Shown here in pieces: positions 6,381 to 13,573 of a stretch of 33,681 nt of DNA (its first letter is position 1; the number at the start of each line of letters is the position of its first letter). The stretch is from the NCBI GenBank assembly GCA_013694745.1, contig JACDBU010000029.1, forward strand, positions 1 to 33,681, read 5' to 3'. The notes under the pieces are model-generated. The model was not told where the DNA came from, did no database searches, and worked only from the letters and a program-made list of their open reading frames with translations. This DNA is from Chitinophagaceae bacterium. GTDB lineage: Bacteria > Bacteroidota > Bacteroidia > Chitinophagales > Chitinophagaceae. A program made the position numbers and the translations under genes.

Positions 6381-6593
6381 ATGAAAAAAACAATTATTGC
6401 AATTGCTGTATTATTAGCAGCAAACACGGGCACATTTGCTCAGGACGGTACAAAAAAACATACTGCTGCAAAGCATAGTATGACAACAAAATACACCTGT
6501 ACTATGCATCCGGAAGTGGTAAGAAATAAGCCAGGCAAATGCCCTAAATGCGGAATGACATTAGTTAAGATGAAATCTGGTAAAATGAAGTGA
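6381..6593 (+). CDS. Small exported heavy-metal-binding domain protein
   Basis: Signal peptide; YTCTMHPEVVRNKPGKCPKCGMTLVKM. Confidence 0.8.
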   Translation: MKKTIIAIAVLLAANTGTFAQDGTKKHTAAKHSMTTKYTCTMHPEVVRNKPGKCPKCGMTLVKMKSGKMK

Positions 6594-6643
6594 ATGAAAA
6601 TGTAAACAACCTCAACAATTTCTTAACTATTAAATTTAAAAAT

Positions 6644-6985
6644 ATGAGTCACGGAAATCATCAACAAATTATAGCTGCATTAAATAATTGTGCGGCCGAA
6701 TGCAATCATTGTGCAAATGCCTGCTTAGATGAACAGGATGTAAAAATGCTTGCGAAATGTATTAAACTGGATATTGACTGCGTTGAAATATGCAGTACGA
6801 CTGCCTCATTGCTTGCACGGGATTCTGCACATGGACATCATCTTTTAAAAGAATGCGTAGAAGTTTGCAATGCCTGTGCTGAAGAATGTGAAAAACATTC
6901 TGCAATGGGAATGGAACATTGCAAGACATGCGCAGATGCCTGTAGAACTTGCGCAGATGCCTGCAGCAAACATCTAAATACCTAA
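6644..6985 (+). CDS. Four-helix bundle copper-binding protein (Csp/DUF326-like)
   Basis: CAAECNHCANAC...CIKLDIDCVEIC...CVEVCNACAEEC...CKTCADACRTCADAC; internal ATG at 6644 preferred. Confidence 0.85.
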   Translation: MSHGNHQQIIAALNNCAAECNHCANACLDEQDVKMLAKCIKLDIDCVEICSTTASLLARDSAHGHHLLKECVEVCNACAEECEKHSAMGMEHCKTCADACRTCADACSKHLNT

Positions 6986-11937: not shown

Positions 11938-11988
11938 CGCTAATCCATTATCGGTTTGATTTTTGATAAGTTTAAAAAAAAAATTATT

Positions 11989-12321
11989 ATGAAAGGGTAT
12001 CACACTTACAAAACATGCATTGATGCCTGCCTTAATTGTGCAGCAATCTGTAATCATTGTGCAAGCTCCTGCACGCAGGAGGAAAATATAAAAATGATGG
12101 CACGTTGTATCCAACTGGATATGGAATGTGCAGCCACCTGTTATGCAGCAGCACAGCTAATGAGTGTAGGCAGCGAAAAAGCAAAAGATATTTGCCGTAT
12201 CTGTGCCGACATCTGCGAGGCTTGTAGTAATGAATGTGGCAAACATAAAACAGAGCATTGCCAGGAATGCTCACAGGCATGTAAGCATTGTGCTGAGGAA
12301 TGCCGGAAGATGGCAGCTTAA
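11989..12321 (+). CDS. Four-helix bundle copper-binding protein (Csp/DUF326-like), second copy
   Basis: CIDACLNCAAICNHCASSC...CIQLDMECAATC...CRICADICEACSNEC...CQECSQACKHCAEEC; ATG at 11989. Confidence 0.85.
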   Translation: MKGYHTYKTCIDACLNCAAICNHCASSCTQEENIKMMARCIQLDMECAATCYAAAQLMSVGSEKAKDICRICADICEACSNECGKHKTEHCQECSQACKHCAEECRKMAA

Positions 12322-12361: not shown

Positions 12362-12463
12362 CTTCCGCAGTTGTTGGTTTAGTGACCAACAACTTTTTTT
12401 GGGTGTTCGTTATAACAGACGCAACGTTTTCTAACGGAGTCGTTCCTGAGAAATAGGAAAGAG
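12362..12463. repeat. Intergenic repeat element, copy A
   Basis: cttccgcagttgttggtttagtgaccaacaactttttttgggtgttcgttataacagacgcaacgttttctaacggagtcgttcctgagaaa...; aligns with 13427-13516. Confidence 0.85.
12369..12400 (+). terminator. Intrinsic terminator after second Csp gene
   Basis: agttgttggt-ttagtg-accaacaact, 10-bp perfect stem plus T-tract. Confidence 0.85.
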
Positions 12464-12509
12464 TGGCATTTTGTAAAATGAAAAAAGTTTTTTTTCAGTC
12501 CCACCGAGA

Positions 12510-13403
12510 TTATTTTATTGCAACAGGGCCCATTGGCATATTTGCTGGTGGTGTTTTTGCGCTGAGAATAATAATATCTCTCGTGCCTCTTCCACCGTTA
12601 ACATCTGCATTTGCTACGGTAATTTCAGTACCATAATGCCATACACGTTTATCGTTCCAGTAAATTAATTGCCCCCGTGGTATCACAGAATTAAAAATTA
12701 ATTCTTCGGTTTTTTTACCATTATCATCCATAACATATTGGCTAACTCCTGAATCATCGGTTATATTATCTCTATTTACAACCAACATCCCTACGTGCCT
12801 GTTTCCATCCTGGTGAAAACCCTCAACAGCGGGCATTCCTGCCCGGTTTGTATAACAGTCAACTCTTTGAAATTGCGCTAAAAGAATTGCATCACTCCAT
12901 CCAAAAAATGTTGCATAGTGAACTAATAACTTATGAAAATCTGCACTGTTTGTAATGTGCTCACTAATTCGTGGATACTCTCTGCGCATATCTCCATGAA
13001 CCGGGTTATAGGCTATTGATTGCTGCATAGCATACTGGGGCAGATTCCAACACCAATATCCTGTTTCAGCCGACTTCCATGTTGGTTCTGCGGTACTTAA
13101 ATAGTTTTTGCTTTCTACCTCACTAATGTCACTAAGCTTATTAACAGCAGTTATGCGTTCATCAATTTCTTTAATTGCAGGGGCCATACAATGCTTAATT
13201 CTAAACCATGCAATGGATTTATAGCGATAGCCATCTTTAATGTACTGATCAACAGGAATTTCTTCAAAGAACTGTTTCCATGAATTTATGTTGATAAAAG
13301 ATGATGCATCAATTGATTCATAAATAAAGTTTGATAAGTCTCTTTCAATGGGTTGTTGATAGGGATCAGGGATTGATTTGGCAGTATCAGTAAGGTTATC
13401 CAT
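12510..13403 (-). CDS. 2OG-Fe dioxygenase family protein (2OG-Fe_Oxy_2-like; possible amino-acid hydroxylase)
   Basis: AVEGFHQDGNRHVGMLVVNRDNI ... VIPRGQLIYWNDKRVWHYGTEI (HxD...H facial triad pattern). Confidence 0.75.
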   Translation of the reverse strand: MDNLTDTAKSIPDPYQQPIERDLSNFIYESIDASSFININSWKQFFEEIPVDQYIKDGYRYKSIAWFRIKHCMAPAIKEIDERITAVNKLSDISEVESKNYLSTAEPTWKSAETGYWCWNLPQYAMQQSIAYNPVHGDMRREYPRISEHITNSADFHKLLVHYATFFGWSDAILLAQFQRVDCYTNRAGMPAVEGFHQDGNRHVGMLVVNRDNITDDSGVSQYVMDDNGKKTEELIFNSVIPRGQLIYWNDKRVWHYGTEITVANADVNGGRGTRDIIILSAKTPPANMPMGPVAIK

Positions 13404-13426
13404 TTTAAAGATTATTTATTTATTTT

Positions 13427-13516
13427 CTTCCGTTGTTGTCTTTTGACCAATAACTTTTTTTGGTGTTCGTTATAATTTAACGCATCGTCCCTGACGGAGA
13501 CGTTGCTGAGAAAGAG
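13427..13516. repeat. Intergenic repeat element, copy B
   Basis: cttccgttgttgtcttttgaccaataactttttttggtgttcgttataatttaacgcatcgtccctgacggagacgttgctgagaaagag; same orientation as copy A. Confidence 0.85.
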
Positions 13517-13517
13517 G

Positions 13518-13573
13518 ACTTGCTACTTGCCACTTACTACTCGTTACTCGCTAATTGCTACTTGCTACTTGCT
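13518..13573. repeat. Degenerate heptamer tandem repeat, 8 units of ACTTGCT
   Basis: acttgct acttgcc acttact actcgtt actcgct aattgct acttgct acttgct. Confidence 0.95.

Follow-up and report, generated by a model that had tools for sequence, protein, structure and literature searches.

Two repeats lying on either side of a 2OG-Fe dioxygenase gene in a 33,681-nucleotide stretch of Chitinophagaceae DNA (contig JACDBU010000029.1, referred to here as the window) are, with a probability of about 0.85, mosaic intergenic repeats drawn from two small palindromic families, the 3' half of each being a RAYT-type REP element, REP2. REP2 comprises intergenic hairpins of 34-35 nt and is a new family of a known kind of repeat. 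In their own genome the two copies are worn relics, copy A being more worn than copy B.

Make-up of the two copies

Copies A and B were found where an earlier note on this DNA had placed them, in a common orientation and on either side of the dioxygenase gene. The features are as follows.

12362..12463, + strand: copy A, a composite of REP1 palindrome, linker and REP2 unit (BLASTN and alignment)
12369..12401, + strand: REP1-like palindrome of copy A (AGTTGTTGG..CCAACAACT), then a T run (-14.7 kcal/mol, z -4.95)
12402..12417, + strand: linker of copy A, the GGTGTTCGTTATAA block (sequence comparison)
12418..12452, + strand: REP2 unit of copy A, decayed, subtype GCAACGTTTTC-TATC-GAAGACGTTGC
12510..13403, - strand: 2OG-Fe dioxygenase gene (PF10014, E = 1.5e-32), between copies A and B
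13427..13516, + strand: copy B, a composite like copy A (BLASTN and alignment)
13432..13461, + strand: REP1-like palindrome of copy B, imperfect, then a T run (-7.2 kcal/mol, z -2.5)
13479..13512, + strand: REP2 unit of copy B, with a bulged-A stem and a TGAC loop

The blocks said to be common to the two copies, TGACCAAYAACTTTTTTTGG and TTTTTTKGGTGTTCGTTATAA, are present and 95% identical. When the whole genome, a MAG of 2.75 Mb in 261 contigs and 86.55% complete, was searched by BLASTN with copy A and its flanks, copy B was returned as the second match (E = 1.9e-12, 80% identity). The same genome holds further copies of the 3' half, so the objection that no other copies exist does not apply. 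The pair may have arisen either by local duplication or through insertion, more than once, beside REP1.

A DUF326 gene on the + strand ends before copy A, and a Fapy-glycosylase gene on the - strand lies beyond copy B. Between copy B and the Fapy gene there is a tandem repeat of the heptanucleotide ACTTGCT (8 copies, 79% matches, 13518-13573). The window encodes two cysteine-rich DUF326 proteins, at 6590-6985 and 11956-12321, which are separated by approximately 5 kb, share 42% identity over the match and lie near Zip and metal-resistance-like genes. These two proteins may be copper-storage-like.

The REP1-like palindrome of copy A forms an 11-bp hairpin 48 nt downstream of the DUF326 gene and, as a GC-containing hairpin followed by a T run, was scored as an intrinsic terminator. 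The 5' half of copy A is probably now also the transcription terminator of the DUF326 gene. This hairpin gives some support to the view that A and B arose by duplication of a terminator region, with palindromes acting chiefly as transcription terminators. That view is unlikely: the terminator scan did not list the palindrome of copy B, which has no + strand gene that it could terminate, the argument applies to the 5' half only, and same-strand terminator-like sites immediately upstream of REP2 are rare (2/212). The same count led us to reject the idea that REP2 is an insertion 3' of terminators. Among congeners, G001, G012 and G016 have related palindromes, CCGTTGTTGGTCTTGTGACCAACAAC, and G014 has a weaker match; the window's own genome holds one more, on contig C111, and none was found in viral contigs. 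Among all loci compared, the GGTGTTCGTTATAA linker was seen only in copies A and B.

Hairpin and distribution of REP2

The earlier note had drawn an inner hairpin, CGTT-ttct-AACG in copy A and CGTC-cct-GACG in copy B, and had taken the difference as a compensatory change. The letters are present as quoted. However, across 75 REP2 units only 35% of cells are paired in this stem, about the same as in slid controls, and the additional sequences therefore do not support covariance for the inner hairpin as drawn. The 75-sequence alignment gives instead an 11-bp stem in which columns 4-14 pair with 18-29 and A21 is bulged. In this stem 88% of cells are paired, against 30-54% in slid controls, and both sides have changed in 28 cells, against 8.5 in shuffles. 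Its apical part is 91% paired, with covariation that was matched in 0/500 shuffles; the pairs observed are C-G, U-A and A-U at columns 13/19 and U-A and C-G at columns 14/18. The proposal of a repeated element with a selected fold thus stands, since the bulged-A stem covaries, although the stem cited for it was the wrong one.

The REP2 half of copy A scores 27 against the copy on contig C211 and 18.5 against copy B, while the REP2 half of copy B scores 26 against the copies on C59 and C144 and 18.5 against copy A. Copy A belongs to a CGTTTTC-TATC-GAAG subtype and copy B to a CCC-TATC-GG subtype. Because each copy is nearer to other genomic copies than to its partner, the stem difference between them reflects, as judged from sequence comparison, membership of two subtypes and not compensatory change in a sister pair. 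By coincidence, CGTT and CGTC find complements in the loop letters TAAC and TGAC; such complementarity is absent from the other copies compared in the same genome, whose loops are TATC and TGCC.

A covariance model, R1, was built on the family hairpin of the 75-sequence alignment. With R1 the REP2 unit of copy A scored 33.5 bits (E = 4.8e-9) and that of copy B, which has a folding energy of -11.7 kcal/mol, 47.2 bits (E = 6.2e-14), both units being in the training alignment of the model so that the two scores are not independent. R1 found 17 matches in the window's own genome and up to 14 in congeners, and an exact-pattern scan of genome contigs found at least 117 stretches with REP2, nearly all of them from Chitinophagaceae or relatives. 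The consensus of 230 units from the matches listed is nACGCAACGTCCCTTnCAGGAGACRTTGCTGAGAA, a short imperfect palindrome with many intergenic copies; among these units only 4/230 lie inside ORFs, which make up 77% of the DNA. Neighbouring units are in direct rather than inverted order in 79/108 cases, which was counted against the RAYT reading. Direct neighbours are mainly 17-180 bp apart and many units are single, while inverted pairs with outward-pointing ends are 22-640 bp apart. In several Chitinophagaceae MAGs (L132, L090, L077, L125 and L121) there are tandem arrays of units of approximately 122-135 bp, each ending in a REP2 hairpin and all in one orientation. The CALPIT02 records (L073, L075 and others), from a MAG titled as Streptomyces griseus, are packed with REP2, and the title looks wrong.

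A covarying hairpin, together with the terminator-like hairpin of copy A, might suggest that REP2 is a structured RNA, such as a regulatory leader, an attenuator or a small RNA, selected for its RNA fold. We regard this as highly improbable. No Rfam family matched the region with a meaningful score, only chance-level scores being obtained; REP2 units occupy tandem, convergent and divergent gaps in both orientations; and an RNA role leaves unexplained the inverted pairs around RAYT genes described below.

RAYT genes of related genomes

Scanning relatives with R1 revealed inverted REP2 pairs approximately 600 bp apart in genomes G007 and G017. The gene between them encodes 184-197 aa with the motifs PNHVH and YMHNNPC or YMHDNPC. 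In G017, a congener, one end of the paired elements matches part of a Ginsengibacter hankyongi record (L145) exactly, and the window's host genus thus appears to be Ginsengibacter. In congeners and relatives alike, inverted REP2 pairs point their TTCTCAG ends outward around an HUH/Y1 RAYT gene. The left unit is on the minus strand and the right unit on the plus strand at L264, L265 and L272 (congeners) and at L268, L270 and L289; at L266 two units flank the RAYT gene in a single orientation. The closer members of the clade among 101 relatives are REP2-flanked (G007, G017, G054, G027, G099 and G012), with weak matches at G040, and several RAYTs of 41-57% identity have no REP2 (L267, L271, L273 and L291). 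REP2 was found in 0/34 loci of other Y1 transposases in the window's own genome and 12 REP2-rich genomes. Given the REP2-flanked RAYT genes and the absence of REP2 from the other Y1 loci, the reading we favour is that a Bacteroidota RAYT clade similar to subclass 2.6 has REP2 as its cognate REP.

A Pfam Y1_Tnp search of the same 13 genomes had given the impression that REP2 has no link to a transposase. This was rejected, since the best-scoring matches were other Y1 families; the true partner lies near the Pfam cut-off and was located by inspecting the DNA between paired REP2 copies. The RAYT of G007 is above the Y1_Tnp cut-off. Among NCBIfam models it matches REP_Tyr_transpos best (E = 1e-16), although at 61-63 bits the RAYT protein stays under the curated cut-off of 80 bits. 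The top PDB match of the family profile is TnpA-REP, 4er8 (E = 5e-4), and the H-U-H histidines, the Y and HSS are invariant in the alignment. Outward-ended inverted pairs would also be expected if REP2 units were the terminal inverted repeats of a small DDE-type DNA transposon. The genes between such pairs are HUH/Y1 RAYTs, and many REP2 units are single or in direct arrays, which leaves that explanation practically negligible.

Clade members without REP2 (e.g. G089 and G008), as well as G040 and G012, have inverted flanking hairpins of a different stem sequence; hairpins of this kind in the clade include GCATCGTC/GACGATGC and GCGAGTC/GACTCGC. Varied but matching flanking hairpins are what would be expected if enzyme and hairpin co-evolve. 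More distant RAYTs, including the one on contig C21 of the window's own genome, have a different palindrome, GGTTCGTGTC..CACGAACC, on their flanks.

REP2 flanks RAYT genes in relatives and does not do so in the window's own genome. No intact cognate RAYT was found in this MAG at 86.55% completeness, the closest intact RAYT being 28% identical and flanked by another palindrome. On C59 of this genome (G000; L295, 6362-6463) there is a 34-codon RAYT start of the REP2-linked clade, which ends at the start of a REP2 pair or cluster; upstream of it lies a GGGGTTTTCATTT..AAATGAAACCCC palindrome resembling the one beside the G008 RAYT. On C21 (L306, 392-1579) a single 396-aa frame runs from a CarboxypepD_reg region at its N-terminus into a RAYT domain (aa 222-383) and is bracketed by GGTTCGTG palindromes; a REPtron seemingly landed in frame.

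The arrangement resembles the known REP/RAYT REPtrons (E. coli REP; Nunvar 2010, PMC2817692; PMC8266576) in that a hairpin of 20-65 nt is present in many intergenic copies, single or grouped, and flanks a Y1/HUH transposase gene. The bulge in the stem is also a feature of E. coli REP, where TnpA-REP binds the single-stranded REP, requires both a guide tetranucleotide and the bulge, and cleaves at a dinucleotide close by (PMC8266576). Unlike classical REPs, REP2 has many direct arrays and lacks the GTAG/GTGG foot, having TTCTCA on one strand and nAC on the other. A likeness to its RAYT is found in the Bacteroidetes TnpA-Y1 subclass 2.6, RAYT group 5, which is reported to be flanked by 'atypical secondary structures' (PMC6006769). 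The phylum, the size of approximately 180 aa, the NH[LIV]H, Y-x-H-x-NP and SS motifs and the non-GTAG flanking hairpins repeated in the genome are all shared with that group. Set against the subclass 2.6 motifs (about 179 aa, NH[LIV]H, YIH[QN]NP, SS), the present RAYTs have PNH[VLI]H, Y143-x-H145-x-N147-P148 and HSS, with one member having SHVH and some deviating at I or [QN]. As aligned here, they have V[WF]E or VFK where the WQ motif is expected, and because WQ is missing the RAYT is described as resembling subclass 2.6 rather than as a member of it.

The CGTC-tagged REPs (PMC3733652) are likewise short intergenic palindromes, and Bacteroidetes is one of several phyla in which they have been reported. 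They differ from REP2 in having an unpaired terminal CGTC tag, an 8-9 bp stem and a CCA tail; the CGTC of REP2 is within its paired stem, with neither unpaired tag nor CCA tail, and REP2 is linked to a transposase gene while the CGTC REPs are not. No description of the specific REP2 sequence was found in the literature searched.

The dioxygenase gene and the proposed movement of REP2

The earlier note had also suggested that the dioxygenase gene could have moved as a cassette with the repeats as its ends, whether integron-like or as a passenger of a RAYT. The gene is certainly rare. A homology search found none in 19 congeners, and elsewhere in the class only 2 other genomes of 395 have one, G024 with a broken copy and G412 with a gene of 35% identity. 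The composite of REP1 and linker is, moreover, unique to A and B among the loci compared. Nevertheless, movement as a cassette is very unlikely. On C211, unrelated genes also have REP2 clusters to either side. There is mostly no gene between REP2 units, given the short spacing of direct neighbours and the many single units, whereas integron attC repeats are separated by cassette genes. The two copies are only approximately 80% alike, with REP2 halves of different subtypes, the gene has the GC content of its neighbours, and no REP2 lies beside the broken copy in G024, the only close relative of the gene. That the REP1-linker-REP2 composite is itself mobile, its two direct copies letting a RAYT move the dioxygenase gene as a single-stranded passenger, is scarcely to be credited.

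The broken copy in G024 (L067, 1504-1796), a complete Chitinophagaceae genome, consists of pieces 49-72% identical to the gene with the frame lost. The gene was not found on phages, and on plasmids there were only matches of 22-28% identity. The neighbouring Fapy and DUF326 genes were used to look for an empty site; their homologues sit in other contexts in congeners, and no empty site was found this way. The rarity of the gene leaves horizontal gain open, and the gene may well have been gained in this way; nothing ties such a gain to the repeats.

For the REP2 halves of A and B, which we read as RAYT-type REP elements, the bulged hairpin, conserved foot, intergenic placement and REPtrons in relatives fit known REP biology. 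On the minus strand the 35-nt unit reads 5'-TTCTCA-GCAACGTC-T-CC..loop..GG-GACGTTGC-GT, and as single-stranded DNA it would form a hairpin of 11 bp that has a single bulged base and, at its foot, the conserved TTCTCA. By analogy with the biochemistry of TnpA-REP, the RAYT, an HUH tyrosine transposase, would bind the folded hairpin at replication, nick beside its foot through a 5'-phosphotyrosine link and transfer REP2 copies into new single-stranded sites. Insertions that damaged genes would be selected away, and the surviving copies would be those between genes. We infer from this analogy that REP2 is moved by its RAYT.

A and B mark old mobile-DNA activity and do not in themselves show that the gene they bracket travelled as a cassette. 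A riddle about a flanked gene thereby becomes a named kind of mobile DNA, with a well-defined pair of enzyme and hairpin that lacks the GTAG foot. The Chitinophagales RAYTs of the REP2-linked clade are flanked by inverted hairpins whose stems vary by member yet stay paired, and the recognition of 'atypical' hairpins by RAYTs of the Bacteroidetes type becomes testable in vitro.
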